This document shows positions 19,946 through 63,345 of a stretch of DNA of 64,000 nucleotides, piece by piece. Both the position numbers and the translations under genes were made by a program. The stretch is from Henricia sp. BOLD:AAB3569. Its lineage: Eukaryota; Echinodermata; Asteroidea; Spinulosida; Echinasteridae. The notes beneath the pieces are model-generated. The model saw nothing but the letters and a program-made list of their open reading frames with translations, was not told the DNA's origin and did no database searches. The stretch is from assembly GCA_037783545.1 (NCBI GenBank), contig JBBELK010000326.1, forward strand, positions 868,001 to 932,000. The letters run 5' to 3'. The stretch's first letter is position 1. Each line of letters starts with the position of its first letter.

Positions 19946-20497
19946 CCCCGAGCGCGAGCTGAGAAGCATTAAGAACATGAGTCATGAACACGCGCACGCC
20001 ATCACAAAAACAGGACAAAACAAATCATGTGTCATTTTCTCACCGTGACACACTAATTCCCCCTAAAACTCACCCAAACCTTGTCAGGCATAACCCCTAC
20101 GCAGGTCCTTGAGGGAAATAACCAGCCACGATGATTATTTTGCCAACAATTCTAACAAAACAAACCGGTATGCCCACAGCCTAACCGTTGTCATGTTGTG
20201 AAGTCTATCTGCCTAGTCTGTGTACAAAGGAATACCAATGCGCATTGGTTACCAGACTTGACCTTATCGCTATTATCGGTCGTGTGAGGGCAGCATTCAA
20301 CGAAATGTTTTTAAAAAACGGCTTTTTGTCTCATGAGACAAAAACTATTTCTTTTGCTCATTTCTCAAAGACTATAACACTTCAGACCAAATCATTTCAG
20401 GGGAAGTTTTCTACGGTCATCATGTTTATATTGTGTAAGTTAGGCGTAAATCTGTGAACATTTCTGATTTTCGAATTACCAATGATGTATACTGCCT

Positions 20498-29152: not shown

Positions 29153-29522
29153 AAACAAAGAACAAAGCCACAAGAGGACAAATTTACGAAAAGACAAACT
29201 CCAAATCAAAGGACAAAACGGCAAGAGGACAAATTTACGAAAAGACATAGTAAAAATCAACCAAAAGACAAATCGACATAAGGACAAAGTTACAAAAGGG
29301 TCGTTTTCACAAAAGGACGCCCTCACACGCAAAGGACGTTTTCACAAAAGGACGTCAACACACACGCAAAGGTCGTTTTCACAAGAGGACGTCAACACAC
29401 ACACGCAAAGGTCGTTTTCACAAGAGGACGTCCACAAACACGCAAAGAACGTTTTCATAAAAGGACAAATTTTTGATAACTTAACTATTGTCGAACGCTG
29501 GGGGCGCTTGTTCAGATATCCA
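29153..29522. repeat. Left terminal inverted repeat of the giant transposon
   Basis: Outer part: irregular 9-14-bp modules such as AAGAGGACAAATTTACG and AAAGGACAAA. Middle: three to four units of about 40 bp containing CGTTTTCACAAGAGGACGTC and ACACGCAAAGG. Inner end: TCGAACGCTGGGGGCGCTTG, followed within 20 bp by the integrase start codon. The whole is the reverse complement of 62808-63345 with few substitutions, but lacks the outermost ~90 bp and an inner ~120-bp module of the right copy. The modules are likely transposase-binding sites, and the repeat may contain the promoter. Confidence 0.9.
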
Positions 29523-29531
29523 CGGCCAGTA

Positions 29532-32500
29532 ATGGCGGCGCTGGATGTTGGTGGTGTTGTATGCCGGAACATACGAAACCGAGTTTATCGACTGCACACG
29601 GCCATTGAAAATGGCGACAATACTGTAGGCAGTATTCAGTATAGGTTAGACAGTTTGTGCAGAGATGTTCTTCAATATCGGGAACATCTTCCAGATTATG
29701 AGGAAGTGTCGAATTGTTTGGTGTATGCGAAGAATATCGTTGATAATGTTTTAGTTGATGACGACGCACACGACATCGATGCCGACGGCCTACGTCATGT
29801 ACCGCAACAAGCTGAACGTCGTTGTCCTCGATCTACTGTGGGTGGTGTTGGTCGACCGAAATATATTATTACCGACGAGCAACTTCGTTTTTTTATAGGT
29901 GAGTAAAAGTCTTCAATGTAGTCTGTACTCTATCTGGTACTAGTCCGAGTGGGTAACCGTCCGAGTAATACGTACCTGTCAATTGTAATCCCGGCCCTGG
30001 GGAGTGAGGGGACCCGGGACTAGCGAGGACTGGGCCGAGGATGTCCAAGACCAAGTGGCCCAGCGTGATGCTCCCGCAACGTCCCCGCTACGTGCCTGGC
30101 CGTGTGGGGCACTTGATTTTGTACATCCCGGCTAACCCCGGCCCCAGTATGCGGGGCATTATTGTACAACCCCCGCACAATCCCGGCCCTGACATGATTG
30201 ATGTGGGGCATTTCGGACAACCCCCAACATGCGGAGCACCCCACATGCATGGCATTTGTCACAAATTTTCCATTGCCTACCTACTTTGTGTAAAAAAATC
30301 TGGCACTGCATGCAGTATATTAACTATAGGTGGTACAACCCCAGCAAGTCCCCGCTATTGCCACAGTAGGGCGGGGCAGCAATTCCGGATATATGTCCCC
30401 GCTATTGTTCCGGTAGAGCGGGGAAACACAATTGTACAACCCGGCACAGTAGTCGACTTTTCCCGATGATTCTTTTAAACAGCAAAAAACTTGTCTAACG
30501 TAATTTTTCCTTGCATTTTCTCTATACTCGTGGCTGCTTTAACCAATGTGCCGTCGAGGCCCATACATCATAATTCTGCAAACATGGCAAACGATACAAT
30601 ACCACAAGAGGGCAGGATTGCTATGCGCTGATTGGCTGTGAACTGTAGCCGGCTGTGACCCCACAACCCGCCCTCTTGTAGTATTGTATTGTTTGCAGAA
30701 TTATGGGCCTCCACGAAAAATTGGTTAAGCAGCCATGAGTACGGAGAAAATGCAAAGAAAAATTATGTTGGACGTATTTTTTGAATCATCGGGAAAAGTC
30801 GACCACTGTGCAGAATTTCAGACATTCCAAGGACCTCCAAAGGACCATGGTATGTTTTTTAAAGTTTAATTTTGACTAAGGTGAAATTTCCAGATTCATA
30901 AACAGGTCTATCTTGGTCATGCAGTCATGGCCAAGATGGCGCCGTGGTACTTTTAGAAGGCTAAAAGTGTTGTTTTTGACGTTTATATTGGGACGTTATC
31001 ATTTTCTATATAACACTTTTAGCCCTTAACATTTTAACCCCCTTCGTCGTGTGGAACATTCGAGCACGCCCTCAATAGTCCAAATACCCGTGTGAAAATT
31101 CTTACCGTAAATTCCAAATCAGACATTTAAAAGCACACCATGGAGGTCCTTGTAATCTCAAGACTTCTGTACCCTTGTCGTTCATTGTCCATGATGACTC
31201 AAACATCAAAAAAGGATAAAAGGGAGCAAAATTTGGCGTAAAATCGACAAATCTGGACAGACGGGAGACTTGACCATGTTGACTTCGCTACTATCGCGTC
31301 AAAAGAAAAGTAGTCCCACCAACGCGGCTGGATTTTGTTTAGCCTAGACTGGCCCCCTGTCTATGTGCGCTACGCTGCTCTTGCTCATATACAACGCGTG
31401 GGGAAGTAAATATGTGGACAGGGGGCCAGTCTAGGCTAAACAAAATCCATCCGCGTTGGTGGGACTACTTTCCTTTTGACGCGGCCTAGCATGAAGTCTG
31501 TGGTACCACGCTGACTGAAAATTTTTGATTTTACCCCAAATTTTGCTCCCTTTTACCTTTTTTTATGTTTGAGTCATCATGGACAATGAACGACAAGGGT
31601 ACAGAAGTCTTGAGATTACAAGGACCTCCATGGTGTGCTTTTTAAATGTCTGATTTGGAATTTACGGTAATAATTTTCACACAGGTATTTCGACTCTTGA
31701 GGGCATGCTCGAATGTTCCACACAACGAAGGGGGTTAAAATGTTAAGGGGCTAAAAGTGTTATATAGAAAATGATAACGTCCCAATATAAACGTCAAAAA
31801 CAACACTTTTAGCCTTCTAAAAGTAGCGCCGTGGAGAATAAAACTTTATCAACTAAAAGTGATTCATCACGTCCCAATGTAAACGTCAGAAAATCACTTA
31901 TAGCCTTCTAAAAGTAGAACATCCCATAGGTTTTGTGCAAGGGGTTCTTGGCAGCTGTCATGGATTGTTCAAGTTTTTTATATATTTGTGAGCTATGTTC
32001 ATTCTAATGTTTTATGTACATTGCTTCTTTACTACCCGGTTTACAGGTCAGTTGAATTGTTCTGTGAAAGACACAGCCAGGTGTTTCTCTGTCAGTGAGA
32101 GAACTATAAAGAGGCGTCTTCAAGAATATGGCATCTTAATTCGCAACCTGTACAGTGAAATAGAAGACGGTGAACTAGATGATCGAGTGGACTTTGTTTT
32201 GAATCATATGCCAAGGGCAGGTAAGTACCCAACCACCTCTTTCTCAATAGTGTTCACCTACATGTAATGCACCCAGTGTTAATGTTCTCCACTGCTAAAA
32301 GTCAGTATATGATTGGGTTTTGAGTTGCTTCACTTGTTTAAGTCATTAGATTGATATATATATAAGGCCACCTCTTTATAAGGGGCCATCTGCCTAAAGT
32401 GCCCACATCAGTTTGGTCAACATCAGTTTGTACATATTCATATTGGGGACTGGGCCTCGGTCTAATAATGGGGCCAGTAGCCAGGTATACTCCTTTTATA

Positions 32501-35500
32501 GTAACCATAAACATACAGTGTACATGTACATGTACAGTATCATGATGTGAACTTTCTTAACGGTACATATACTTCAGTGTCATTTGGATTCTGTGCTGTT
32601 GTGTTATACTATAGGATACAAAACTGTTGACGGCTACCTCATTTCTCAAGGTGTGAGAGTGCAGAGGCAGCGAATCAGGGATAGTCTTTATCGATTAGAG
32701 CCCCATAGACAGGAATTGAGGACTATTAGTGTTATACACAGAAGGCACTACTCTGTCCCATCTCCATTGTCTCTTTGGCATATAGATGGCCACCATAAGC
32801 TCATCAGGTAAGCAAACTATTTTTCTTTTTCAATTTTTGAAAGCCTGTATTCCAAATGTCTGAACTATTTATGCATTTTTCCCCCTCAACAAGCCCAATG
32901 TTGTAATATTCTACTTCAGTTATTGATGTGATATCATGGACAATTTAAAGTTGTACTGGTCTGGGTTCATCTTGTTGAATTTCATTTTATACAGTATATT
33001 GTTTTTATATTCATTGGTTTTTCTCGTATGTGTATTTCAGATGGCGTTTTGTGACACATGGCGGCATTGATGGATACAGTCGTGCTATCGTATATCTGAA
33101 GTGCAGCACAAACAACAAGGCATCAACCGTATGTCAGCTCTTTCAAGAAGCAGTGTTAAATTGGGGTCTGCCTTCAAGGGTACGTTCAGACCATGGAGGG
33201 GAAAACACACAAGTTGCAGCACTCATGCTTCTGCATCCCTTAAGAGGACCAGGACGGGGATCTTTCATTACAGGTCGCAGTGTTCACAACACCAGGATAG
33301 AGCGTCTCTGGCGTGACTTACATGAGCAAGTTATGAAGAGTTTCTACAAACTGTTCATGAGCTTTGAGAGGAGAGGCATTTTTGATCCTGATAATGACCT
33401 ACACATGTCCTGCCTACATGCTGTTTTTTTACCACGTATCAACCACAGCATCGAGTGTTTTGTTGACATGTGGAATAACCATAAGATGAGAACTGCTGGA
33501 AACAGAACCCCACTCCAACTGTTTGTGACAGGGCTTCACACCAACAGAGGATCATCACTCTCTAATGAGTACTTTGACAACATGAATGAGGTACATGTAG
33601 GGTTTAAGGCATTTGATGACATACGTGTAGCATGTATTGCCTAATAATAAATTTGATTTTAAAGGCCTTATCAGTGGTTTTTTTGTTGAGCAACTCTACA
33701 AACAAACCGGTATACATGTAAATCGAAGGACATCAAAAACCTTTCTGTAGACATTTTACTTTCATCAAATGTACCTGTTTTCCAAAAACAAGACTTGGCT
33801 TAATATTCTAAATTCATCTCATCATTCTCAGTCAGTCGCGTACGTACGTGTCCACTTTGTGGCTCGTGTCATACTGGTTGTGTGTCCCGACCAGTCAGTA
33901 GTCTACCTACAGAAAGTGTGCAAAGCCTGAATCGTGCGGGTTCCTAACTTCTAAGTAAATAATTTGCAACTGATCTAAACAAATTTCATCTATTATTCTC
34001 TGGGAAAAATATATTATCTCGTGCAGAAAAATTTCAATGCATAGTTGCTAACAATGGCAGCGTCGCTAGACCATTTTGATGGGGGTGGGTGTGACCAAAA
34101 TGTTGGTGTGACTGAAATTTTCCGGGCCTTCGCGGAGTCGCTCAGTGGGGAAGGGGGGAAGGGCCACATGCCAACACACATGTAATACTAACCTTAACTC
34201 CCTAGGATGTATACAGTATGTAAAATCATATTTTGGAGGATTATGAGGAGTGTTAGGGTTAACGAATTGTATTTCCAGCGCTGTAATGCCACTGCTGACA
34301 TAGTCGGTAATATACTTGTTATTCTTCTTTTATTTTTCCCCCTGACAGAACCATGGATTTGCCAACAGTACCATGATTTTGCCGACAAAAAATGATTAAT
34401 GAGGGGGGAGGTAGAGGTAGGGGTAGGGGTAGGGGTAGGGGTAGGGGGGGTCATATCCCCGACACCCACCCTGCCCCCCTCCCTTAGCGATTCAATTTTT
34501 ACTTTAAATGTTTTCGTAGTGAACTCGTTGATTACTACATTTTGGGTTATTGCAAATAAAACAGTGGGCCTTTACATTGCAATTACTTTAGTACAGAGAT
34601 TTTATTTTAAACTTCAAATTAGTTTCTGACAGGCCCCAGTGACTACAGTTTTGTAGTTAAAGGCAGTATACATCATTGGTAAGCCCTTACAAACAGTGTC
34701 ATATAGTGTCATCTTCCTGTATGAATAAAGATATGCATTATTAAAACCAACCTCAGTAAAATCTAGCTCCATACCTCGTCAAACTTTTGAGAAAACAGTG
34801 AAAAACCGTGTCGTTTTTCTTCCGAAATTGTGTGAAACAAAATGTCGAGGCGAGTTTTTGTACTAGCGCCCTCTTGCGATAAAATACATTACTGCAGGGA
34901 TAAGCAGGCACTGTTTCATGTTTACGTAGTTTCTTCTAATACAACAGCCGTTTGATGTGCGCAAATCAAGTAATCCGACACCGTCTGTACGCGCGCTAGT
35001 TGGCCGGCTGGTTGGCAGCCGAGGTCAATTATATATGTATTTATATACCTCATACATTGAGTCTCGTTAACTGATTGGTTAAAAGCAGATCACCTGACAT
35101 GGAATAGTTTAACCATTTCCGACGGCAACTAAAAAAAGTACTATTGTTTGACCTTTGCGTCATAGGTCAAAGGATAGTACAATTTTGGGCAACTGAAAAA
35201 GTACTATTGTTTGACCTCTGCGTCATAGGTCAAAAATACCAATAATTTTGACACATAAAATCAATGTATGAGGTATATAAAACAAATATTGACTGCTCTT
35301 TATTCGGGTTATGGAGCAAACTATCGTCCCTCGGTTATTTTGAGACGGCAGGCCTGCTATTTTCCCTCGGCCTACGGCCTCGGGAAAATAGCCCTCGGCC
35401 TACGGCCTCGGGAAAATAGCAGGCCTGCCGTCTCAAAATAACCTCGGGACGATAGTTTGCACCATCACCCTCATGAGCAGTCAATATTTGTATAACAGTG

Positions 35501-38500
35501 TACTAGTATATGGCACATGCACAGTATAGTAAACCGTATTCGTTGTACACGGTACGTGTTTTGTAGTAAATGTGTGTGTGTCATTACAAAAAAAGAGGAA
35601 AATGCAGATTTTTTTATTTATTTTCCGTATAAATACCATACACCCGCGCCACTAATGCTTCATAATATGACATAACACCCAACTGAGAAAGTGTAAATAT
35701 GGCGAGGAAACATGATTTTAGGGGTGAAAATGTAATGTTTTTCTTTGAATTTTTATGCCATATGTTCCATAGATTTAGTGCATGAAGTCAATTTTCAATG
35801 GGATATGAGGAAACAAGAGGAAATCAGCTGATCAACTGAAAAGTTTTGTGAATTTTTTACAACTTTTGTGAAAACAAGGTGACGAGTTTGTTGAAAAACG
35901 CATGTTTTTGTGAATTTCAAACTCTCGGCCGGTTTTGTAGAATATTGGCAATTTTTGTGACATTTTCACAAAAGTGGTAAATTAATTTCACAAAACACTT
36001 ACATGTACTTCTGCACCGCTAACAAAAAGAGACAAAGACCAAAGACATTCTTTATTTTTCTTAAATTGTGTTTATTTCAAATAAAGGCAGTATACATCAT
36101 AGGTGAAAATTTGGGGTTGCAGGTTCGAACCTTCCCACGGCTACGGTACCTGTGCCCTTGGGCAAGGCACTCAACCACACTTGCTCCATCCTTCGGAAGG
36201 GATATAAAGCCGTTGGTCCAGTGTGTTAGGTAATGGAAACGCACTCTAAAGATCCCAGAGCATTCTTTCGTGAAGAGCAAGGGGGATCATCCCCGGTGTC
36301 TCTGGCCATTTCTAATTCTAATTCTTCATGGTTTCCTCACGCTTGCGAGTGACAGTGCAATGAGCACTATTGAGGAATCCTTGGTATGAATACCAGAAAG
36401 AAATAATAATAATAATAATTAGTCAAATAGTGTTATCTCCCTGTGTGATTGAAAAACAACCCGAGTAAAAAAATCAGCTCTTTACTTCGTCTAACTTTTG
36501 AGAAAAGTCAAAAACCGGGCCGTTATTGTCCTAAAATATTGCGTGGTTATTAATCTGAGAATTTCACATCAATATAGGCCTATGTACATCTACACTTTCG
36601 CTCACTTCTTGAATAAACACGCAACATTTTGATACAACCACCCGATTTTTCCGAGCTGCATACGTTTCCCGTACGCGTATCATGGTCCCTTGCGATGATG
36701 TCACGCGTACGGGAAACGTATGCGGCTCGGAAAAACTCGGTGGTAATAGACAGTTTCGGCAAGCTCAAAATCCACGCGCGTATAGCTATCTGTATACAAA
36801 GTGACTTGCATTCATATTTTTGATAGAAGGTTCACAATGTCTACTAAGCTCCATATGGGACTAAACTTCAAGCTCGTGACAAAATCCCATTCCTGTGTAA
36901 AGTTTGTGCACTCCCAGTAGATTAGTGCACTGGAAATGTCGATTTAGTTTGTTTTGCGGAAAATAGGCCTAGTCACACCCGTCTATTGAGATAGGTGCTT
37001 GTACATTTTTTAATATTAGTGGTTATTGATTGCAATCCAGATCATCAGTCCCAAGGAAACAACCAAACTTGAGATGAGAGAAAAATCGTGAGGGCCTAAT
37101 CAGGATTTGAACCTGATACCTCTGACTCGCTAGACAGATGCTGTACTAGCCGAGCTATAAGGCACAGTTAATATTAATCCTGAGGGGGTATTACCATATA
37201 GTATTTTATATCAATGGTGATCGGGCAACATACCACACATGTATGTTGTGTTCAGTCCCAAGTAAAAGAACGTATGATGTCAATTGCCATATTGATTAGC
37301 CGAAAATATGAAACACCAATTAGTATTATACAGTCAACATGGTCAAACACTAATAATAAGAGCACTGTTAAATACAAAGTAGTCATGCCTCTAACAAGGA
37401 AACATTTAGGTCCCAAGTCTTTGTTTTCGTTTGTTTTTAAGACTGATAATACTTGATTACTCTTATAACAAAGTAATTTATCAGTGTTATACTGTATTTG
37501 GTAACACACAAAGGGTGGCGCTTTCACTTGAGTAGATTTATGCACATATCAATTGCATCTGGAAAATTGTATTGAATTATGTATAAATCTGTACCTATCT
37601 TGGCAGCCTGAAGGTGCTAAATCCGTCACTGGAAGGGGAAGGGGGAAGGGGGAGAGGTAGGCCTTCCAGAGGAAGGGGTCAAAAAGGCAGCCAGGGGAGG
37701 GCCAGAGAAGGCCTAGAGGCAGAAGAGCTGCTCTCCAACCTGTTAGACAAGGCCAACCAGTCATCGATTTACCAGATCAGCGACGGCAAAGACTTAAGGG
37801 GCGTTCACACTATCGCGGAAAATTCACACTTTCGCGCTGCGCTCACCGCATTGCATGAGTTCCTAATCGCCGATTATTCCAAAATAGAAAATTCCACTCT
37901 GGTAACTTGGGGCTTCTTTGATACCTCACTGGCTGCGCGTTGGAAAGGTCAGCGCACCGCGGTCAAAGTTCAACAAATTTGAACTTTGACCCAGCTCAAA
38001 ACGTTTTGCGCATCGCGATAGGCCGCGCACAAGCGGCAAACCAGTTTGTGTACAAACCAATGGAACAGTGTGATTTTTCCGCGATAGTGTGAACGCCCCT
38101 TAAGAGTATGCAAAACTTAGACTGGGTGAAATAACACAGTAAACTCTTGTCATAACACCCCTGATATAAAGCTCTTCTTGATATAAAGCGCCCTGCCATT
38201 ATTCTCCGCATCGTGTATGCATTGGTTATAGCACTCTCTGGATATAAAGCTCAAATTATTCCGGTCTCTTGAAGAAAGCTATAATGAGAGTTTACTGTAA
38301 CCCCAGAGCACATTACCATGCACGGACACCCAGAATTTCCCATGTTATAACATATATATACCATATATATACTCTCTAACAAAAGAAACTGTGCATGGTA
38401 AAAATTAATGTATTTTTTCAAGAAGGTAGAAAATAAACACCAAATTCACAGACAATATTCTCCGACATTGTTAGAAAAAGGTTATGCACTCAAAACCTGC

Positions 38501-41500
38501 TCATGGCATAGTGCAGGACTTAGGCATGCCTGGGTGTTGATTTTACAATAGGGGTCCTACAGGTTGTTATGTAACAGAATTCCATAAAGTTCAGGTCTCG
38601 TTAGCAAGCCGTATAAAAGGACTACCCAAATGCCAGAAGAGCATTTTGCAAGATTGTGTCCAGTACTTAAAACGTCATGCCGCGTCTGTCCTTAGCTGAC
38701 GGTCATCAGGCCATTGAGCATGTTTGGGATGAGATGGAGCGCCGATTATGTCATCTTCCTCAGCAGCCAACAAACCTGCAACAGCTTGGTAGAGATCTCG
38801 TCCAGGTGTGAAATGACATCCCACAAGACTTTCATGCGCGTGTCATTGGCTCCATGAGGCGAAGATGCACAGCAAAGATTTTGTAAGCATATGTTCATGT
38901 ACTGTTACTGTGTAAAGGAAAAGAGATTATACAGTCAAACACTGATAATTAGAGCACTGTTAATACAAAGTAATGCCTATAACAAGCAAAAGTTTAAGTC
39001 CAAAGTCTTTTGTTTTCAAGACTTATAATACAAGATTATTTCCAAGGACCTCGTATTATCAGTGTTCCATCGATATGAAGTTTGCAATTGATCACGTTCA
39101 AATGACATCACTTCCTACAAGATGTCATGGCATCAGGATTTTCAGCGTAATTTTTGGTGACGCGCTTCGGTTGCGCCGTGTTTCGAACAAATTTCGAGCA
39201 ACACGCACGCATGTTTGGAACAATTTTCAGGGTGTGCGTGCGCGTACTTGATGGCGTTTAATACGCAGTAGCATTTTTCCTACGAAGATGGCATCTGTGA
39301 ACGTGATCAATTAGTGGCCAGTTTGCATTAGAAGAGTTATGTTGCATTATGAAAATTATATATTATGCTGTAAGAAAGATTCAGAAAAGTTGCGCAAACA
39401 AAATAGGCATCATACCGGAAATTGACATAGTACTCCATGTTGTTCAAGAACCGCTTGTCCATGGTGATAGACATCAGTGCTGAATGGGGAGCTTCTCCTG
39501 GTGTCAGGTAGTCTTCCCGGGGCTTTTCCAGTGGCTCATGCTCACACTGACCTAACCCAACAGACCCACCCAATGCCCATTCATGTTTTCCACACACATG
39601 GTGGAGTAGGCCCCTCCATTTCTCCTGAAAGGTACGGGAAAATTAACTTATTAACCCTCGTAGCAGGTGATCCTTGGGACTGTTTTGAACAGTCTGTTTG
39701 TATTACGTGTACGGTATACACATATAAGCTTGCCGTGGGTTAGCGCAGGCGCGGGCACACACCCCATAGGGGTGCAAAAACCATTTTCGTATCTGTATAC
39801 AAATTGGAGGAACAAAAATCTGCATGATACATCTTGAATTCGGATTTTCGAGTAGTCCCATCGAGTTGTTACTGAACTTGTCTATCGACCGTGCCTGGAT
39901 GAAGAGCTTTTCTTCTTCATTCAAAAAATTTGTTTTTCGTTATAAATTTAGCTTTGCGGTGCTTTAGAAGCCATGCCTTTGTTAGGAGAGCAAAAATATT
40001 CACGTGCGTAACTATATGATGTACGCCAGCGCAGCACGCGCTAACCCAGAGATTGCCTGTGAACCCTTACATGTTACCCCTGGTTTCCCTCTACAATGCT
40101 AACCCTGGGGTTTTGGCCGTTAACCCCGAGATTGCCCTCCTTAATCCTGGTCACTGGCAGGGTTAACCAACCCCGGCGTAACCGTCTTATTTTGTCTTAA
40201 CCCGGGGCGGAAAAAACAGTAGTGGCCCCCGGGCATCTCGGGGTTAAGGATTGCAAGTACCTTACATCCTGATTAAATTGGCCTTTGTAAGGGCCCGATT
40301 GCAGATTTTGTTTCGGCAGGGTGGCAAAGTGATGATGGGATGAAGAAGTGATGGGCATATTAGCAATGGTGCAAAGTGGATGTGGGGTAAATTCACTCAT
40401 ACATTCCTGTATTTTTTGGCGGCATTCACTAATGACTGATGTGTCTCTGACAAATTTTGCAATGTGTTCACTGACTTGGAATGAAATGCATAGCACATGC
40501 ATTCTACTCTTTATAACAACCCTAAATACAGTTTGCCTTTTGAGTTACATACCTGGCAGATGTCTTTTTTTCTCGGAAGGGTTCCACTCCAGACACCCCT
40601 GAGCTGTAAGAGGACAATATATTTGGAAATACTCAGCTCTGGCAAATGGTAAAAGAACGAGAGAGCTTGGCTGAAGCATACCTCATATAATTTTCTCAAA
40701 TATAGTTAGAGGTCCAAGTGCTCGATAAAAGCCTACGAAACACAAATATACATCAGACAGTTTTTTTAAGACAAAGACTGGACAGTTTTAAACCCTTTTT
40801 AGCTTGGCACGTGCTCATGCCCAATTCAGCGAATATGGAACATGCCCACATACAAACTACATGTACATGCCCCCATAAGCAAAACTGGAATAAACATGAT
40901 ACAATACAGACAAGACAATACCTGTCAGTAGAGTGGGCCATTTCTCCTCCATGTTATTGGCTCTCAAAGGCGATACACCTATCATGGGACTACAAAGAAA
41001 AAACCCATAAATTTTTAATGAACTGTTGTCAGCTATGTGTTTCAATCACTGCAGCACAATCCCACTCAATTAATTTAAATTATGCATACACCAACCAAAA
41101 AGGTGCATAGTGCAATGTGAACATGTAGACTTGTTAGAAAATAACCAATGATTCTTAATCTGTTTTCCTTATGTCCGCCCCAAAACAACTTTGTGCACAG
41201 GCAATCAGGAGTGCAGGCCGTGGTTTAGGATGAAGTACATGTAGTTCAGGGCGAAGTGGTTTTGGGGACGGTTAACCCTTATTTGACAGTTTTCTTAAAA
41301 GTTAGACGAAGTACAGAGCTTATTTTTGCTTAGGTTGGTTTTTATCATGAATATCTAATAACGACACAGAGGGATAAAACTATTTGTAATGGTTTACCAA
41401 TCATGTATACCGCCTTTAAGTGTTTACTGAGAAAAGGCATTATCTGATTTTCTTCAACTCATAGTCTTACCTGGGAGCTACACCGGATAGATGTGCAGGG

Positions 41501-45036: not shown

Positions 45037-45084
45037 CCAATCAACCAAAGCGTACAAAGGGGTAAGGGGTTGAAGCCCACCTAG

Positions 45085-48800: not shown

Positions 48801-48896
48801 TTAATTAATCGTCGTTAGTTAATGAAGCGTGCATTTGCACCTCACTTAACGGAGATCAAACAAAGCAGTGCGATCCCCAAATCGCTTCGTCAAACG
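45672..48896. repeat. 1.6-kb tandem duplication
   Basis: The unit 45672-47286 is repeated at 47287-48896 with few differences (a shortened ACAG near 47770, a three-base loss near 48157). The junction is at CGAAGG/TTTATTC with AAGG microhomology. Each unit includes a foldback with AGGCTGGATCCGAA ends (46897-47021 and 48507-48631), a poly-C/poly-G stretch and part of a CTCTAGAGAAATCGCTT-ended element that is complete only at the right side (about 48771-49045). Noncoding. The high identity means a recent event or an assembly artefact. Confidence 0.9.
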
Positions 48897-49045
48897 AAGG
48901 GAGCATTCTCACTACAATTTTGCTTCGTCGAATGAAGGGATTTTAACCACCATCGAATGAAAAGGCGTGCCTTCATGTCAGGAAATCTCTTTAATAAATC
49001 ATCAGTGCATCTTCGTCGAACGAAGCGATTTCTCTAGTGAGAGCG
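48771..49045. mobile_element. MITE with CTCTAGAGAAATCGCTT ends
   Basis: The left end CTCTAGAGAAATCGCTTAGG pairs with GAAGCGATTTCTCTAGTGAG at the right, and GCTTCGTC(G/A)AA(C/T)GAAG is repeated inside. The first tandem unit keeps only the left half. Confidence 0.6.
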
Positions 49046-53300: not shown

Positions 53301-56300
53301 CGAATATTCACACAATTGGTATTGTTGGAAGAGGGATTAGTCATCAAAATCTTAGATGGCCAGGTTTAAAACTTTTTTGGGGGGTCGGGGGGGGGGGGGG
53401 GGGGGGTGCACATGGAATGTCCTGTATATATTTGAAATAGCCCTAGTAACCCTGCACCACTATTTCTTTGCAGCACTTTCTAAATAAAATGATCATTAAA
53501 ATAGACCAAGCTTACATCGAGAACTCCCGTTTGCAGAAGACCGTCGGCAAACTGGGCTTCAGCTGGATTGTCTCTGCTGCCCAATAGCAAGCGGTCAATC
53601 AGGGTAGGCGAGAGAAAGTTTGGGGTGGGGCCATCTTGCATGATGCACTGACCTACATGTACAAGGACAATGTCTCGTAATAATAAAAACTAGCGAATGC
53701 TATGAAGTTCAAAGTAAAGCATTTACTATGAAGTATAAGCATTTAGAATGAGCAAATGCTTCAATTTACACGAATAAAGGTTTCTTGTACTGTCCAGCAT
53801 CTACTTGTCGAAATTGTAGTAATACATGTAATGCGCAATACTTGTGGTTGCCTAGTGCCTAGTATTATGAAATTGATTAGTTCTTATTCATACAAACACG
53901 AGTAAATGCTTATAAAAATGGTAGTAAAAGCGAATGCTGGTTTTTTTTACGACCCAATATTTTGAACAAATTTGGTTAGGACAAAATAAACAAATATACA
54001 TCATCCAAATACTAACCAGCATGTAATCATAAAATGTGAACTTTACAACAATTTCTTTAACTTAATATGCACTTATTTGTACAAATGCAAACAATGTAAA
54101 TGCTTGAGGTAGCCACTTCAATGTAAAATGGCCACCATACCATTGGGTTAGGCGAGACTAAGTTTGATTAAAATTAGAGGTCGTTTTAAATCCACTTTGC
54201 CTGTTAAAAAAAAGTATGTATGCAAATTCAATTTGGTGTCTTTGATGTTGCTGTTGCTATGAACAAAGTAAATCAAAACAACAAGCAATGGCAGTACATG
54301 TACTGGAAGGCATATCAGAGTATACTGCATGAGTCATGAAAATACTCAACGAGCCAAGAGCGAGATCAGTATTTTGATGACTTGTGCGGTAGCTTCTCAA
54401 ATCACCTAAAAGACCCCCAATATTGTTATTGTAATAAAATGAAGCTTAAATACTTTCTTTGTTTTGGAACATTTCTGCAAGGTTTTTGTCTGTTTGGTGT
54501 CGAAAACTTCAGTTGGTTTTCAATGTTTATAACTGCATGCCATTTTTTTTCCTGTTTTACATTATCTGTTACTGTACTCACGCGTGTGTTGCGCGCACAC
54601 CCACAGTACATTCACTTGATGCATGATACTTGCGTACGCTTTGCTGTGGACTGACAATAATTTGATTGGGCTCTATCTGCGCTACATGTACACAGTATGC
54701 AAAGTCAATTTGGTGGATGATACTGATTATCCAAAAACTACACGTAATTCTGTACTTTTAATGGCCTTTTATGCATGTGCATATTGTGCAACACAAACTT
54801 ACCGATAACGATCCCAGCAACGAAATACACCATCCTATCAAGAAAGCCTGCTTGGTCTGGTGCAAGCTCTCTTGACTTCGCTGGCCCAATCGTCACTCGG
54901 TCATATAGGGAGGCCAAACCGAGGCGTAGAAACTCCCTCCGAGGGCCTCCCAAGTCTTGGCCTTTCTCGCCCATAAATGCCACCCGCAAGGGAAGACGGG
55001 CATTATATGAAGGTGCAGACAGCTCGTCCACCATGCTGTTAAATATGTCCAGTCTGGACACTGTGACATCATAGGTGTCCCCCTCAATAAAATCATCCAC
55101 CCCTTCAGGAATATTGAGGGATCTCCCTTGAAGGTGGAGTTGGCGGAATGCCTCAATGATGTCTTTCATGGTGGAGTTGCTGTCGCTATGAACAAAGTAA
55201 AACAAAAAGCAAATATTAATGTGGTAGGGAATTTGACCATAGTTTTACGGAACGAAATGTTCCCACACATGTGCACTTTATGACTATAGCAATGACATCA
55301 CCACGTGCACGGTGGTTACGTAATATTATCTCAAATTATAAAATCTTGAGAACTCCAACAGATATTGGAAAGATTCTTTCACCACATATACATGTAAGAA
55401 TTGTTGAACAATTTGTGCACACAATAGTGACGTAATGATGAGATTGACTGTGCCAATAATGAAATGATAAAATCTTGAGAACTCTAACAGATAATGGAAA
55501 GATTCTTTCACCACATATACATGTAAGAATTGTTCTTCAGTACAACCTTGAACAATTTGTGCACACAATAGTGACCTAATGATGAGATTGACTGTGCCAA
55601 TAATGACGTCATCAGATTCACAATTTTAGCGTTGAATAGTAAAAGAGTCATGTCTTGAGAATTCCAATACTGGCAATCGATATGTGAATGTTTCTTTTGC
55701 AACATCGACCAACTCAAGTTTTCAACCAATTTCAAAAGTGTGATGTCACCTGATCACCTTGCGTTTGTAAAAAAAACCCGCTCAGTTCTAGTTATTGTTG
55801 CAATATAACTCGGCTCAGTTTGTGAGACATCCGACTCGTTTTTGCAGAGTGGGTCACATTAAAAATACTGTTTAATCATGTAAAACCCATAATAATCGGA
55901 CAGAAATAGTCTTGGTATTACTCACTATCCTTCCTTGAGCAGATGCAAAATTTCTTGTATTTCTTCATGGTTGGGTGTGGTTCCTGCATCTGTTGGTTCC
56001 TGCCAATTCAGTGCCATACAATTTAAGAACCAAACTTGCTAATCAATTGGTAAGATAGTGTTTAAACATTTATTAGGTGTGTATTTATCAGTAATGTGCA
56101 ATGACCTCCGATTTTTTTACAATAGCCTAGAAAATACCATAAAAATTCAGAATGCTTATGAGAAAAAAATATATATATTCGTGGGGTACCGTGGCCGAGT
56201 GGTTAGGGCCATTGACTCGCAATCATGGGTGAAAACTTGGGGTTGCGGGTTAGAATCCGGCCGCGGTACCTGTGCCCTTGGGCAAGGCACTTAACCACAC

Positions 56301-58843
56301 TTGCTCCATCCTTCGGAAGGGATGTAAAGCCGTTGGTCTAGTGTGTTAGGTAATGGTAACGCATTCTAAAGATCCCAGAGCATTCAAGGGGATATTCCCC
56401 GGTGTCTCTGGCCATTTCTAATCCTAATTCTTCATGGGTTTCCTCACGCTTAGGAGTGACAGTGCAATGAGCACTATTGAGGAATCCTTGGTATGAATAC
56501 CAGAAAGAAATAATAATAATAATAACATACATGTACATGTATTGTACAGTATCGGTGTATGATACGGTTTTTGCCTCGCTTGCATTCAGGCCAATGGTGG
56601 ACACACAGTTTTGACTGTTTTTCTGTCTTTTCTTTTCTGCATTTTGAAAATGTGGGTTATGTCAGTCCGAGCTCAAAATCTTGCTGTTGGGATAATTTGT
56701 TTTTTTCTTCAATGACATTTGTTGATAATGTTTGATTTAAAGGCACATGCTCGTCAGCAATGTGCGCGCGCCAAATTCGTGTCACGAAATACGCAGCTCC
56801 ATGCCTTTGCTTTGGAGCTGCGTATTTCTTGCCACGAATTTGGCGCGCGCGCATTGCTGACGATCCTGTGCCTTTAATATAGAAATGTTCTGATTCATTG
56901 CTATTGTCCGTCTGTGTTTTGGCACGAAACCGTGAGTGACTATATAACTGACCTTTCAATTGTTTTGAGCAGTATATTCTACATTACATGTATGATGTAT
57001 ATATTTAGAAATTGCACATAAATTTGTTTCAACAACTTGAAAAGACCATTTTTACAAATGCATCAAAATGTCACACTTTGGCTCCTGTTTTTATTTTAAA
57101 AAATCCATTAACAAAATGTCTACTCACTTTGTCTGTTTGTCTGTCTGCAGTGTCAGTTGAGAGTTGGACTTCAGGTGGTGAGAATGGATCATCATTTGGT
57201 GAGACTGGATCTGGGTCATCATTTGGTGCGGCTGGGTCATGATTTGGTGCGGCTGGGTCATTTGATGGGGCGGAGTCCTATACAGTATATATATATTTAT
57301 GTTAATATCACTATAAAACATCAAGTTGTAATTATTCATGTAATTATTAGGTTTTTAGGGTCTAGAAAATTAGGTAAATGCTACACATACAATGTACAAG
57401 CATTTTTGTGTGTGAAGCAAAAATATCTGCAACAGGCAAAACACAACACAAGAAGAAATTTGTCTTTGCTTATTAAAATACAAAACATAAAGGAAATTCA
57501 AGGCAATTACAGGGACTTTCCAGACCGTATCTGGAAACTGCCAGGTATTTCCAGTGTGTTTTTGAAATTATAATGAGCGTGGATTTGTCGCAGATTTCTT
57601 CTCATGGTTGCAAAAGGTACATTATTCTAGCCCGTACGACTTATGCATGTCTTTTCCAGAGCGAGTCACATATAAAAATTGTCCCGTTTAATATTTTCTG
57701 TACTTAACTTACCATTTCTTTACACTGGCTCACGTGGTCTCTCATGACACTTGTCAAAAAGGTATCACCGCAGTAACAGCAGGTTAGTACTGCCTGCGAT
57801 GATGGTGTGCAGTTCTCTGTTATTTGAATGTTTTGTTGCATTGGTCGGATGTACATTCGCTGACTACTCAGCAACTTTAACTCTTTTGCTGAGTAAGGCC
57901 CAGAATGAACAACTTCCAGTTTAGAACGTGACCTGGATTTCATAACCATCAACTCAAAACCATTCTCCAGTTCAGTCTTGTTGAAGGTACTGAAAATGAG
58001 ATAAAAATAACAAATTTTCACAACTACAGTTTGTGGTGTGAAACCCAGACTCATTATATAATGGGTGAGTTTTGTATGTATAGACATGGAAACTCAAACT
58101 ACTAACAATGACATATCACCCAAACTACTAATGGTTTGGGTTATTATTATTATTATTATTATTTCTTTCTGGTATTCATACCAAGGATTCCTCAATAGTG
58201 CTCATTGCACTGTCACTTGTAAGCGTGAGGAAACCCATGAAGGTTGTTGACTTGCAATACTTGGGCAAAAATGTTGGCTTGGGGGTTCGATGCCCGGCCA
58301 TATGGTGCCTGTGCCCTTGAGCAAAGCATCTAACCACAGGGGGAGAGGGGCGGGGGTTTGATTTGACAAAATGATATGGTACAGATATGCCGAACACCTG
58401 AAAATTAGATACCGATGACTTTACCCTCTTTTTTGCATGGCATTTAGAAAAAAGTATTACAAGTGTTACTTTATAATACCTCAATATCTGGTCCTGAACA
58501 TGCTGTGGAGTCCCATCCACTTCAAAGTCGATGGTGCTTTCACCAATACCATTGGCTTTCAGGGTAATTTTCTCCTCAATGAGAGGAGCAATGTCGTCGT
58601 CACACCCCGCAAGGCACACAAATATTCGAGAGAATACCTTCTTTTTTTCTGTCAAATAAAAGGCCATACATTGTACTGTGCCAAAAACACGGCGACGCCC
58701 TGTTTGGGTTCGGTGGGGGGAGGGGGGTGGAAGTCAAGACAATTTGGAAATGTAGGTGCTTTAATTCTCATGCAACCTGGCCTAGGGGATTTTTAAAGGT
58801 TTAAGAAAAGGATTTTTAATGCAATTAAAGGGAGGTAGGGGGT

Positions 58844-58876
<33 letters not shown>

Positions 58877-60953
58877 CGGGGGGTTGGCATTGTAACCCCC
58901 ATAACAACAGCCCAACCCCCTCCATATTCGCCACTGTGTGGATATTGGGCCTAAATACAATTTAATTGTACATTTTGTATGTAATATGAACAACTTTAAA
59001 CTCTTTGCAAATTCAGCAGTAATAAGAAATGACTGAAACACTGTCTTGTCAGTTTTTACTTGAACATGGATGTCCAATTAATATACAAACATGTATTCTC
59101 ATATATTGCCTGGCATCAATAATTTCATTAAATACGGTTGCATTTGTTGGGGGAAAAATCATTGTTTAAAAATCAGACATATGTAGTTCAAAATATTGTG
59201 GAATGTTTTCTGTCAATGCTTAAATTTATTTATTTTTATTTGTTTTAATTTTTATATGTATATATTACTGTGAATATTGGCTTTGAAAAGATGAAATACA
59301 GTTATCCTTGGAAAAGGTTTTAAAAAAAAAATTTATTTATTTATTTCATTTATTTTGATGTCCACTACATTGGTATCTTCCTAAACAGGCTTTGTTGTCT
59401 GACTCACAAATTTTAATTCAGTTTTTATTTTAAAATAAAGATTTACTTTTTGTAAAAGGAAATGGCAATATGTGTATCTTCACATTACAACCTACAGTAG
59501 CATGGAAGGAATAACCATGGAGGAAGGGAATAACCTAGCTGGCAGTGTCATTCCTTGTCTACTTGTACAGTATTATATGTACAACACACAGTCACCAACA
59601 AACACAAGGTTAATGTGTTGAGTGAAAAGTCCTTGTGCCTTACATTCCTGGTCAAACCACATAGGGATTAGAAATAAACAGAGGATGATAAAACAGAGAA
59701 TCCATTGTGTAGTGCCAATTGATATATGGAGGTAATCACTTCAGCAGACAATTGGAATGTGCATAATCTCTTGATGAGGACTACAACTATTGATTTTCCC
59801 ACAGTGGGTCTGTTTACAACTGTTTTTGATACTTTTTGGATCTTATAAATAGTATCGGTTTAATAAATTGTTAAAATAAAGTTTAGTATCATGCATATAC
59901 TCACTTTTCTTTGGTGGATGAGATGATGGGGTGTACTGTGACAGAAACAAAAACAATTTTGTTTCAATAATACATAAAAATACAGATATGATCATCGAGC
60001 ATACATCTGCTCTATGGTACGACCATTGAGCTATAAAAAGCTCCATGGTATGACCATGGAGCTATAAGGTATGACACAGGCCTACCATGAAAACTTAATG
60101 CTGCAGTACTGACGAATCAAATCAATGTGGAAGCTCAAATACAAAACATCACAATAAACATACAGTGATCAATGATTCAAGAAACTGAACAATTCATTCG
60201 TCCCTGTCATCTTATTGTTACCTTTCTGTTAATTAAATACAGAAAAGAAATGAGTCATTCATAAACATTTTCTTCTCACCCCAAACACTCGAGCGTGTTC
60301 TTGAAGGGCCATCGATCTGTAAAAAGAATAAAATAAACATATTAATTATATTTATGGCACCTCAACATTTCTGCATAAAACTAATTGTAGGCCTATATCC
60401 GTCCAATTTCCTGACATTGTATCTATAGGCCTAATCAATCTTAACACCCATGGGAAAAATGAGGGGTTCAATAATGTATTCTGGACACACTCCTTAAATA
60501 TGTTCCTTGCTCTATGCTTAAACTCAGTCTGAGCATGGAGCTATATGGTCTGGGTAAATTATTGATATTCACTTTCAAACAAACAAACAAACACACCAAC
60601 ACCCTAACAAACAAAGAACAAAAAACAAAAACGGTAAGTACATCTTCTTTTATTACCTGCGGTTCCCGGGTCTGGGGAGGATGGGAGTCCGGCCGGGAGG
60701 AGGGGGGAGAGGAGGGCTAGGGACGGGTGTTGCGACGGTAGGCACATGTCTCCTTGGTGTAACCATGGAGGAAGAACTTCCTCCATGGTGTAACGTTGTC
60801 GTTTGGCCTAGCTGGCTGTGGCGCTGACGCCGCCGAAACAACCGAAGGTGTCGAACTTGATAAGCTTGATGAAGACGGAATCGCCTCCAACACTCTCTCC
60901 AAGGTACTTATTAAGCGCCTTGCGGTGTTTTCCGTTACTGGCAGATTTGACAT
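50365..60953 (-). CDS. UBZ-HECT ubiquitin ligase of the giant transposon, eleven exons, disrupted
   Basis: Exons in order: 60953-60657, 60316-60280, 59935-59905, 58648-58480, 57989-57713, 57277-57128, 55999-55926, 55185-54803, 53652-53516, 52995-52815 and 51794-50365. All introns are GT-AG with matching phases. Discounting two insertions, about 665 residues result. The N-terminus is Ser/Pro-rich. Exons 4-5 encode a globular region (IFVCLAGCDDD ... MYIRPMQQ) that I associate with transposon-linked HECT proteins, ending in a UBZ-like finger C238-x2-C241-x11-H253-x3-C257. Exon 6 has NDDP-rich repeats. Exons 8-11 are the HECT domain (FMGEKGQDLGGPRREF, GQCIMQDGPTPNF) with catalytic Cys627 in SSTCTHHLQLP (codon 50482-50484). 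A 31-bp net insertion in exon 1 shifts frame, and a 1.14-kb element splits exon 11. HECT proteins pass ubiquitin from E2 to substrate through this cysteine. Confidence 0.88.
50525..51662. mobile_element. 1.14-kb CCAATTGG-rich element inside the last HECT exon
   Basis: CCCTTACCAAAATTTCCAATT at 50525 is complemented by the right end at 51662. Most of the interior is built from CCAATTGGAA words on both strands (palindromic hexamer CAATTG), including tandem AAGCTGCAATTGG units (50990-51065) and TTCCAATTGGTTTTT units (51515-51590). A 42-bp module TCTCGTCAAATGGTTTCATT is repeated about five times at 50810-50950. It separates the HECT codons for SITFTT from those for KQDVG. Reading-frame continuity across the site requires a net insertion divisible by three (for example 1137). 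Long frames within it are repeat artefacts. Confidence 0.85.
52419..52505. repeat. GGACTTGTG minisatellite
   Basis: GGACTTGTG or close variants (GGATTTGTG, ACACTTGTG) recur about seven times in a HECT intron. Echoes are seen near 52750-52790. Confidence 0.5.
52532..52664. mobile_element. TTAA foldback MITE family, copy A
   Basis: Near-palindromic over about 133 bp: ends AAGGCAGAGGCTCGTCAGCA and GCTGACGAGCCTGTGCC, with a centre CTCCATGCCTTTGCTGTAGAG. The left flank is TTAA (52528-52531) and the right flank has decayed to GTTA. It lies in the HECT intron between exons 10 and 11. Confidence 0.85.
53382..53407 (+). repeat. Poly-G tract in a HECT intron
   Basis: A run of G broken only by TC and T. 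It could form G-quadruplexes on the plus strand and C-rich RNA in the HECT transcript. Confidence 0.7.
53653..54802. other. HECT intron 8, no gene seen
   Basis: Noncoding between exons 9 and 8. Only short frames without motifs. Confidence 0.45.
55340..55609. repeat. Direct duplication of about 130 bp in a HECT intron
   Basis: The block AAATCTTGAGAACTC(C/T)AACA through GACTGTGCCAATAATGA occurs at 55340-55463 and 55469-55604. The second copy has a 12-bp insertion (CTTCAGTACAAC). A weaker third copy follows near 55650-55700. Confidence 0.8.
56183..56525 (+). mobile_element. tRNA-derived SINE, near full length
   Basis: The head has an A box (GTGGCCGAGTGGTTAGGGC, tRNA-Leu-like) and a B box (GGTTAGAATCC). 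The body contains GTGCCCTTGGGCAAGGCACT and CACTATTGAGGAATCCTTGG, and the tail is (AAT)n. Further copies are at 36102-36418 and, rearranged, at 58141-58345. It lies in the HECT intron between exons 7 and 6, opposite to the gene. Confidence 0.85.
56741..56873. mobile_element. TTAA foldback MITE family, copy B
   Basis: Ends AGGCACATGCTCGTCAGCAA and its near-complement ATTGCTGACGATCCTGTGCCT, flanked on both sides by TTAA (56737-56740 and 56874-56877). The centre is GCAGCTCCATGCCTTTGC. The best-preserved copy at the ends. Confidence 0.9.
58141..58345. mobile_element. Rearranged SINE: inverted tail joined to head
   Basis: 58141-58245 is the reverse complement of the SINE tail ((ATT)n, then CCAAGGATTCCTCAATAGTG). 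It is joined directly to 58246-58345, a plus-strand SINE head fragment with GGTTCGATGCC and GTGCCTGTGCCCTTGAGCAA. The middle of the SINE is missing. It lies in the HECT intron between exons 5 and 4. Confidence 0.8.
58837..58880 (+). repeat. Poly-G tract, about 40 bp
   Basis: Nearly uninterrupted G in the intron between HECT exons 4 and 3. It is a strong G-quadruplex candidate and a likely sequencing weak spot. Confidence 0.85.
59507..59535. mobile_element. Micro-insertion, site 3 (half-palindrome)
   Basis: GGAATAACC at 59508-59516 is repeated at 59527-59535. Between the copies is ATGGAGGAAG, the same word as in the palindromes at 10140 and 60763. Only one arm is present. Confidence 0.55.
60755..60794. 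mobile_element. Micro-foldback insertion, site 2, in HECT exon 1
   Basis: CCATGGAGGAAG, AA, CTTCCTCCATGG forms a 26-bp palindrome (60763-60788) with TGGTGTAAC on both sides (60755-60763 and 60786-60794). Removing one TGGTGTAAC and the palindrome (31 bp net) puts the Ser-rich and Pro-rich halves of exon 1 into one frame that ends in the correct splice phase. That is direct evidence for insertion with a 9-bp target duplication. Confidence 0.85.
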
Positions 60954-62127
60954 TTTCCTGACACACGTACGCGTATTATCGGTAACTTGCACGGCTCGGT
61001 CGGCCTCTCATCTGCTCGATCGTCGGGCAATTTCGAGCGATCGCGCGCGTACTTGGCTAGCTCACGCCTGTCCAGTTGTCATAGAGATAACGAGCATAGA
61101 ACTATAATTGGTTCCCAGAAGAAAAGGGTCTGAATATTTTGCAGACGGCAGTCCGTTTTTTCGCTAGCAGACGACGCTAGCGGTTCGAAAAATAAAACTG
61201 GACCAAGAATTCAAATGAAATTCTGGGTCCTAGATCATGAGTGGGTTTTTTGGGGGGTGCAAATCCAGTTTGGAGAACATGTATGAGACGTGGTTAAGGG
61301 CGCGGCCTTTTTGGCGAAAATCATTCACATATTTTGGAATAAACTGCAATTTTAGGCCATCTTGTGGATTTTCAAAACGCACAAAATATTTTTTTTCATC
61401 AAAATTTTCAGAGCAATTTCTCCAAAACCATCATTGTCCCCATCCTCTTGCAACAGTGCCCCTTTAAAGCACTCCCTAACTCCTGCGTACAGTGGACCTG
61501 TTGAAAAGGGCCCCATTTGGCGGTGGGACCAGCGACAGAAATCTCGTCGCCTCTGCTGGACCAATCAGGACGCTTGCAGTGCATTATGCAGCACGATTGC
61601 AGGCATTCAAAATGTAACGCGCGCAGATTGTAAACACCGTGCATGCATGTGATACAATACTCGGTAATGCTGGCCGTTGTCCGCGTCGGCGATTGGCTGC
61701 AATTTAAAGAATACTGGGGAATCCGTTCCATTACATTTGTCAGCATGCATCCCTGTTATTATTTTAAAAAACTGCGGAGTAAATAAAGTTCGTCGTTTGA
61801 AAGTTTGGTAGGAATGGGACAGTCATAAGGAACGGAACCCAATACAATTTCTGGAAAGTATAGAAATTGTTTCTTTTCGGCATAACATGACCGAATTGAT
61901 TAAATTACATCAAAATGACTCGGGCGTGAGTTGGCTCAAGACAACAGCCGGCTCGCTCCACATATTTGCGTGTATTTCCTCAGGGTATTGTCACGTCGCT
62001 TTGCAGTATGGAAATTCCCTGAGATCTCAGGACCAATATATGTCGAATATTATAAAGCCAGAGTATTAAACAAAATAGAACAAACTTATTCGGCAATTAA
62101 AATAGTTCGACTGTAATTTGAATTTAA
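60954..62127. other. HECT upstream region
   Basis: Between the HECT start codon and the MITE at 62128 I see no gene. Small inverted words such as GCTAGC...GCTAGC near 61160-61190 occur. It should contain the HECT promoter, but no element can be pointed out. Confidence 0.4.
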
Positions 62128-62259
62128 AGGCAAAGGCTCGTAAGCAATGCGCGCGCGCCACATTCGTGCCGCGAAATACGCAGTTCTATAGCAAAGGCAT
62201 GGAGCTACGAATTTCGTGGCACGAATTTGGCGCGCGCGCATTGCTGACGAGCCTTGCCT
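62128..62259. mobile_element. TTAA foldback MITE family, copy C
   Basis: Ends AGGCAAAGGCTCGTAAGCAA and TTGCTGACGAGCCTTGCCT, flanked by TTAA on both sides (62124-62127 and 62260-62263). The interior GCGCGCGCCACATTCGTGCC arm is paired with GGCACGAATTTGGCGCGCGC. In this copy the central ATGCCTTTGCTATAG lies in the opposite orientation to that in copies A and B. Confidence 0.9.
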
Positions 62260-62807
62260 TTAAATACACGCATCGCAACGTAAAGTCAACACGATTTGCT
62301 CGTTCTCATATGCAGACACCCCTTACACAGGGTGCTACAAGGTAATTTTGCGCCAAATTTCAAAATTTGTGAACACATATAAAAAAAAACAAATAGGCCT
62401 ATCCGCCTTTATTGCCACGTTCAAATCAAATTTAGACACTAAAATTGTTCATCGTACTAGCAAACATCTCAATGTAGTAATGATATTTTGCGAGCAGTAA
62501 GACGCATTGTAAAGTATGTTTTCAAAAAAATATTGGTAACAAATCAAAGTGAGCACTCTGAGACATATCTGCTTTGTTAAAGACTTGTTTGGCATGGAAT
62601 TATTTGAAGTACGTCTTCAAAAGTCATTCTACATATTTTTACTGGTTGTTTGTTGCTTATTTTTGCCAAACATTGCGTAGGATAACACCCATATATATAC
62701 TCTTTGATCGACACCAAAAACCGCGCCAAATGTAAAACGCCTACGGCCGTTAAAAGTTTGCACGTGCGCAGTACTCTGTGTTACCCACGGACATGCGTGG
62801 GCTAGTA

Positions 62808-63345
62808 GCGGACATCTTAACAAGCGCCCCCAGCGTTCGACAATAGTTAAGTTATCAAAAATTTGTCCTTTTGTGAAAACGTTCTTTGCGTGTTTGTGGA
62901 CGTCCTCTTGTGAAAACGACCTTTGCGTGTGTGTGTTGACGTCCTCTTGTGAAAACGACCTTTGCGTGTGTGTTGACGTCCTTTTGTTAAAACGTCCTTT
63001 GCGTGTGAGGGCGTCCTTTTGTGAAAACGACCCTTTTGTAGGTTTGTCCTTTGTTTGATTTTTTACTCTGTCTTTTTGTAACTTTGTCCTTATGTCGATT
63101 TGTCTTTTGTTTGAAATTTATTATGTCTTTTTGTAACTTTGTCCTTATGTCGATTTGTCTTTTGGTTTATTTTTACTATGTCTTTTCGTAAATTTGTCCT
63201 CTTGCAGTTTTGTCCTTTGATTTGGAGTTTGTCTTTTCGTAAATTTGTCCTCTTGTGGCTTTGTTCTTTGTTTGATTGTACTTTTGTCTTTCTGTAAATT
63301 TGTACTCTTGCCATTTTGTCCTTTTGCTGTTGGTTTGTCCTTTGT
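62808..63345. repeat. Right terminal inverted repeat of the giant transposon
   Basis: Inner end AACAAGCGCCCCCAGCG at 62819, then CGTTCTTTGCGTGT / CGTCCTCTTGTGAAAACG units, then an array of TTTGTCC, TTTGTCTTTT and GTAAATTTGTCCTC modules running to about 63345. It is the complement of 29153-29522. It also carries about 120 bp of extra modules (around 63040-63160, a duplicated CTTATGTCGATTTGTCTTTT) and about 90 bp more at its outer end. The outer border is set where the modules stop (TTTGTCCTTTGTG). Confidence 0.88.

Follow-up and report, generated by a model that had tools for sequence, protein, structure and literature searches.

A sea star DNA transposon that inserts as one unit with an integrase gene and a predicted HECT ubiquitin ligase gene

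Do the spliced integrase gene and the spliced HECT-type gene that lie between two opposed repeats in the sea star Henricia sp. BOLD:AAB3569 form one transposon, and what might a ubiquitin ligase do for such an element? The window analysed here is the whole 64,000-nucleotide stretch in which they were noticed (GenBank assembly GCA_037783545.1, contig JBBELK010000326.1, or C326:868001-932000 in the contig labels used below), and the genome searched comprises 740.7 Mb in 2104 contigs. The original prediction, made from the letters of the window, held that both genes belong to a single mobile unit. In the current analysis, we find that a DNA transposon copy, now damaged, occupies window positions 29153-63383, and we judge it probable that this transposon inserts as a single unit carrying an integrase and a predicted HECT ligase that would act on host factors restraining it. 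The mobile-unit part of this explanation is, from comparison of the copies, nearly certain.

Two convergent genes that move together

Self-comparison of the window pairs 29270-29521 with 62810-63061 (252 nt, 96% identity) and 29153-29297 with 63129-63273 (145 nt, 99%), inverted matches that are real and far above chance. The repeats had been placed at 29153-29522 and 62808-63345; their existence and opposite orientation stand, and the right arm was found to run further, to 63383, where the element ends in GGCCGCCCATA. The left arm lacks its outermost 110 bp and one inner module, and its truncated end is directly abutted by a satellite array of 273/310-bp units (24780-29152). Because those 110 bp are lost, the window copy has no left terminus beside which a target duplication could be read. 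Across the copies that carry both genes, the terminal repeats are composed of tandem modules and measure about 550-690 bp.

29153-29521, plus strand: left terminal inverted repeat, truncated (self-comparison and comparison with the sister copy)
62810-63383, minus strand: right terminal inverted repeat, complete, ending in GGCCGCCCATA (self-comparison and comparison with C2045)

The integrase gene (29532-45035, plus strand) starts 10 bp inside the left repeat, as had been proposed, with an ATG at 29532 and five exons that give an open frame of 503 amino acids (aa); its GT-AG splice sites recur at matching places in the copy on contig C290. A 445-aa model ending in exon 4 was replaced by this one after the Strongylocentrotus purpuratus homologue revealed the fifth exon, and the Pfam scan and protein database search were made with the 445-aa version. 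In that scan, the core matched PF24764 (rva_4) with E 2.6e-85, and a weak helix-turn-helix match lay upstream of it. Catalysis is predicted to use D238, D295 and E332, with spacings of 56 and 36.

29532-29898, plus strand: integrase exon 1 (open frame, GT donor; 98% identical in C2045, 46% in C290)
32047-32220, plus strand: integrase exon 2, helix-turn-helix region (gene model, C290 comparison)
32615-32807, plus strand: integrase exon 3, first catalytic D (gene model, C290 comparison, residue mapping)
33041-33590, plus strand: integrase exon 4, DDE core, PF24764 (gene model, Pfam, residue mapping)
44809-45035, plus strand: integrase exon 5, C-terminal tail (55% identical to the S. purpuratus integrase tail, AG acceptor)

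Convergent with the integrase, the HECT gene extends from about 60953 to 50368 on the minus strand in at least seven conserved exon blocks. The inward-running spliced gene that had been predicted at the right is thus present, in damaged form in the window copy. Its reading frame starts near the right repeat, heads inward and closes in the C-lobe with SSTCTHHLQLP; the bounds of the blocks and the splice sites are approximate.

60657-60953, minus strand: HECT first coding exon, proline-rich (a 31-bp insertion breaks the frame here, whereas that of C2045 is open)
58485-58643 (approximate), minus strand: exon block upstream of HECT (58% identical to C290, 42% to C129)
57711-57997 (approximate), minus strand: exon block with a weak C2HC finger match (47% to the S. 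purpuratus homologue; PF13913, E 0.0016, below the cut-off)
54802-55185 (approximate), minus strand: HECT exon block, N-lobe start (58% to C290, 35% to C129)
53516-53653 (approximate), minus strand: HECT exon block, N-lobe (58% to C290, 38% to C129)
52814-52998 (approximate), minus strand: HECT exon block, N-lobe end (48% to C290, 40% to C129)
51666-51795 (boundary approximate), minus strand: HECT last exon, 5' part (63% to C290)
50368-50525, minus strand: HECT last exon, 3' part, with the predicted catalytic cysteine in SSTCTHHLQLP (65% to C290)

A genome search with the left repeat returned at least 76 matches, many of them as inverted pairs, and at least three further loci hold the same gene pair between such repeats with a short target duplication, which is the outcome proposed as support for one mobile unit. 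At C2045:27497-50481 (22,985 bp), all nine integrase and HECT exon pieces tested are present, in blocks 90-98% identical to the window; the repeats (578 bp) are 99% identical and the target duplication TCTTTG is perfect on both sides. This copy was considered as an allele of the window copy and rejected as such, the flanks being unrelated (no match of at least 150 bp at 90% identity between about 20 kb on each side and the window flanks). The insertion at C290:209411-228184 (18,774 bp) has repeats of 554 bp that are 99.8% identical and a perfect GGAATG duplication; identity to the window is 78% in integrase exon 4 and 59% in one HECT exon. At C899:1067316-1105335 (38,020 bp), the repeats (about 690 bp) are 91% identical, GTACCA precedes the left end and forms the right flank, and the same two measures give 59% for the integrase and 36% for HECT. 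Between the window, C290 and C899 families, the repeats align over their outer 24-30 bp only, and the remainder differs.

A single insertion can be read from C305 (403700-404300), an exact empty site of the C290 element with one GGAATG and 366 bp at 99.7% identity; a single event therefore added both genes. The 500-bp left flank of the C290 element matches C305 at 100%. This flank is itself repetitive, and of its 1348 candidate matches 40 were scored, among which C305 was the sole other match at 100% over 500 bases. C305 is likely the other haplotype at the C290 site, which would make this an insertion polymorphism. Insertion as one unit is thus read directly from the sequences of these loci, and the original claim that integrase and HECT gene travel together is borne out by the three insertions and the empty site.

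How constant the pairing is was assessed from a genome search with integrase exon 4 (38 matches), counting loci whose integrase core piece is at least 43% identical to that of the window and excluding weaker matches. Ten loci resulted (C326, C2045, C290, C899:1096k, C1129, C129:711k, C899:561k, C430, C122 and C674); HECT exons, located by searches with one window HECT exon and the S. purpuratus HECT homologue, lie within about 26 kb in the first six, and every one of these pairs is convergent. The C1129 pair rests on one HECT exon and is probably the other haplotype of C899:1096k, leaving five independent pairs. Since the C290 and C899 copies have diverged so far from the window in both genes, the pairing is old. 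Between C290 and C2045, the integrase has a ratio of nonsynonymous to synonymous substitution rates (dN/dS) of 0.086 over 427 codons, with dS 2.7, near saturation; the HECT gene differs by 0.26 per nonsynonymous site (dN 0.33) versus 0.81 per synonymous site (saturated) over 397 codons, from five of the six exon blocks tried, as the proline-rich first exon did not align. These comparisons indicate that both genes are under purifying selection and that the HECT gene has been kept by it.

For both proteins, the closest named relatives come from echinoderms. Outside this genome, the integrase is most similar to Lytechinus variegatus LOC121406606 (68%), and L. variegatus LOC121406605 ranks fourth among the relatives of the HECT protein; both are on a contig of 96,709,854 bases, and because their gene numbers are consecutive they are likely neighbours. 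In an integrase tree of 25 animal sequences, the window, C290, L. variegatus and S. purpuratus sequences group together (99/97), as does C129 with C899 (100/99), and all of these belong to a single echinoderm group of seven rows, which is weakly supported (86/74).

Shorter relatives and place among known transposons

Elements with the same ends and a much shorter interior are also present. Seventeen loci were examined for ends, with end pairs ranked by duplication match and the top one kept at each locus, where there were one to six candidates; 12 showed both ends, and 10 of these are distinct, since C793 and C104 share their duplications with C1488 and C860, respectively, and as likely alleles were counted once. 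C127 and C135 were also considered as alleles, an idea rejected because their duplications differ (GATTAG vs GAGCAA), and they count as two insertions. Relative to the 20-base terminus, the ends that were selected differ at 0 to 4 positions; at C611, C258, C361, C715 and C1111, one end or only a weak end was seen. Nine of the ten distinct short elements have a perfect 6-bp duplication (C109 has 2 mismatches), so that with C2045, C290 and C899 added, perfect duplications flank 12 of the 13 distinct repeat pairs. When the ten short elements, which span 0.8-8.5 kb, were compared with six integrase and HECT proteins, nothing matched at E 0.01. Weak matches resembling integrase exon 1 (42-45% over 31-65 aa) occur in C109, C326:652k and C229 and speak against a clean split between carriers and short elements. 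The short elements are probably non-autonomous relatives mobilised in trans. That each repeat of the window might instead be a separate smaller element was rejected, as the short elements each have two ends, nine of ten with a perfect duplication. The pattern named beforehand as contrary to one unit, with the two genes or the two repeats always apart or each repeat in a smaller element of its own, was not seen in this genome.

By its termini, duplication length and core type, the transposon fits the IS3EU/GingerRoot superfamily. Published descriptions give this group a DDD/E integrase-like core without an N-terminal HHCC motif, the first D lying 100-300 residues in (PMC10045372), together with TA..TA termini, which in fungal members read TAYGG..CCRTA, and 6-bp duplications (PMC10045372; PMC12730594). 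Here, C2045, C290, C899 and all ten distinct short elements begin and end with TATGGG..CCCATA, and the window copy has this terminus at its right end; the duplications are 6 bp long, the window integrase sequence on inspection showed neither an HHCC pattern nor a CxxC ahead of the core, and the first D is residue 238. The gene arrangement has a parallel as well: fungal IS3EU elements that carry TET have an alpha-kinase gene opposed to the transposase, with a TET/JBP gene between the two (PMC12730594). The sea star element likewise has a second gene opposed to the transposase, but this gene is HECT rather than alpha-kinase or TET/JBP. It further differs from described IS3EU/GingerRoot elements in its multi-intron genes, its tandem-module repeats and the length of its intact-ended pair-carrying copies (19-38 kb, n = 3). 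Among the titles listed in searches of the open-licence literature, we found no HECT gene in an IS3EU element or other DNA transposon, and subscription papers or Repbase Reports may hold one; within the literature searched, a HECT gene as the opposed second gene of a transposon appears to be new.

Other systems resemble the element in part. Ginger1 shares an integrase-type transposase, terminal inverted repeats and a link to the ubiquitin system, and differs in its 4-bp CCGG/CCGT duplications, its zinc finger and its ubiquitin- or SUMO-removing domains (OTU or Ulp1 proteases) fused to the transposase (PMC2836005). In contrast, the present element has varied 6-bp duplications, lacks an HHCC finger and encodes its predicted ubiquitin-adding enzyme in a gene of its own, and membership of Ginger1 was rejected on the duplications and the finger. 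RAG-like (RAGL) transposons also combine a transposase and a partner as convergent genes, which there are a RAG1-like transposase and a RAG2-like partner (PMC7204232). The hallmark genes of Polinton/Maverick elements are those for DNA polymerase B, a packaging ATPase and a capsid protein. By eye, no long polymerase-like frame was seen among the open frames listed for the element, and no search was aimed at Polinton genes. RAG1 itself has a RING domain with E3 activity.

What the predicted ligase may do

The assignment of the second protein to the HECT fold is a prediction that draws on Pfam and structural matches. PF00632 matched the C290 exon blocks with E 1.6e-4 and scored above the cut-off on two HECT relatives (P0126, E 1.6e-9; P0127, E 1.2e-10). 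In a Foldseek search of the PDB with a modelled S. purpuratus homologue, the best 50 of 425 matches were all HECT ligases (best E 8.2e-6), and a PDB search by sequence returned E6AP-type matches only, which were weak (best E 0.036). A TC motif near the C-terminus, whose cysteine we take to be the HECT catalytic position, is aligned in five of eight HECT proteins, the remaining three ending or having a gap before it; it is present in the C290, C2045 and C129 copies. A profile search with the HECT alignment yielded seven proteins, four previously found and three additional (two from fish, one unnamed), and no relative was found in viral contigs. The HECT proteins of Sinanodonta (P0127) and Perca (P0130) are about 30% identical over the aligned part; the former has the same TC motif near its C-terminus and, unlike the protein here, an added SAM domain.

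Taking family membership and the duplications as a guide, the integrase would bind the element ends, cut at TATGGG..CCCATA and join them to a staggered 6-bp target, and it would also mobilise the shorter same-ended elements in trans. With less certainty, the HECT protein may be an active E3 ligase, as the conserved predicted catalytic cysteine suggests, and may target a host protein involved in chromatin, repair or defence for turnover, which would let the element be expressed or its insertion be completed. A broader proposal, which we regard as possible and advance tentatively, is that HECT is a lasting second gene of an animal IS3EU-type lineage, selected since before the echinoderm families split and reprogramming the turnover of host silencing or repair factors in favour of movement.

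The same mobile unit could house a HECT protein with another role. It might ubiquitylate the integrase or the integrase-DNA complex, limiting its level or disassembling the complex after strand transfer. The constant convergent pairing (6/6) and the purifying selection on both genes are as expected for partner proteins, and the authors of the Ginger paper proposed that the ubiquitin pathway has a role in transposition (PMC2836005). The short same-ended elements, however, move without carrying HECT, even if it could act on them in trans, and we consider an integrase target rather unlikely. More improbable still is that HECT rides along as passive cargo, captured from the host and of no use to the transposon. 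HECT-like exons without a nearby integrase in this genome, and related HECT proteins in fish and molluscs, would agree with capture; cargo of this kind would nevertheless be expected to decay or vary, whereas HECT is kept in three diverged families bounded by terminal inverted repeats, in the same place and orientation and with low nonsynonymous change. At the far end stands the suggestion that chance placed two unrelated neighbours, an integrase element and a HECT gene of the host, between similar repeats. The window taken by itself, with no left terminus and no duplication, would allow this, but it is refuted by the three further pair insertions with perfect duplications and by the C305 empty site, which lacks both genes at once, and we give it almost no weight.

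Several observations weigh against a functional HECT ligase as a regular partner of the integrase. The PF00632 scores of the C290 blocks (21.9 bits) and the S. purpuratus homologue (22.7) stay under the curated cut-off of 23.9, that of the L. pictus homologue is lower (18.4), and a truncated L. variegatus homologue has no PF00632 match in Pfam. The structure model of the S. purpuratus homologue is poor, with a mean predicted local distance difference test (pLDDT) score of 55 and a C-lobe under 50, and both the activity of the HECT protein and its binding partner are predictions. The HECT frame of the window is broken, and exon 4 of the C2045 integrase has a frame break, appearing as two overlapping matches in different frames. 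Four of the integrase loci (C899:561k, C430, C122 and C674) have no HECT match nearby, and HECT-like exons with no integrase match nearby occur in the C229 cluster (1.03-1.60 Mb) and at C702/C756, C10, C409, C129:1.37 Mb, C326:2.13 Mb/C329 and C8/C258, as well as in some single exons. Because loci with either gene alone exist, the association is not absolute. Finally, C129 holds the gene pair, but inverted repeats were not found in the 21.5 kb covered there.

Published examples exist of transposons that carry demethylases, proteases or kinases. If the favoured reading of a HECT ligase directed at restraining host factors is true, this would be a DNA transposon encoding its own E3 ligase for use against the host or in transposition, and it would account for some unnamed integrase and HECT genes in echinoderm annotations. 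Should the element depend on HECT to move or to evade silencing, the gene would offer a genetically separable handle on how a transposon controls host proteins.

Damage and nested insertions in the window copy

Comparison with C2045 shows what has happened to the window copy. The 31-bp insertion shifts the frame of its first HECT exon (60953-60657), and an insertion of about 1.1 kb, which has many CCAATTGG tandem repeats and inverted CTTACCAAAATTTCC ends, interrupts the catalytic C-lobe exon. As a source of ligase, this copy is probably dead. The original estimate of about 34 kb agrees with the span of 29153-63383, although part of that length is an insertion of about 9.4 kb in the last integrase intron, which does not belong to the original element. 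Much of it recurs at 12439-20501 of the window in blocks 93-99% identical, as copies of another repeat, and both ends of the nested copy bear an inverted AAAGGCAGTATACATCATTGGTAA motif.

50526-51665 (about), no strand assigned: 1.1-kb insertion splitting the HECT C-lobe exon, absent from C2045
34660-44053, no strand assigned: 9.4-kb insertion in the last integrase intron, absent from C2045

Also within the element, a tandem duplication of about 1.6 kb lies at about 45.8-48.9 kb of the window and is apparently single in C2045. Elsewhere in the genome, the C229 cluster holds more than 10 HECT exon pieces, 67-95% identical to those of the window and several with stops, on a contig with no integrase match; these may represent amplification of a fragment, or a cluster on the host side. 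Outside the element, reverse-transcriptase-like and Gypsy-like pol frames, as judged by eye, lie at 2279-3723 and 6303-8778 of the window.

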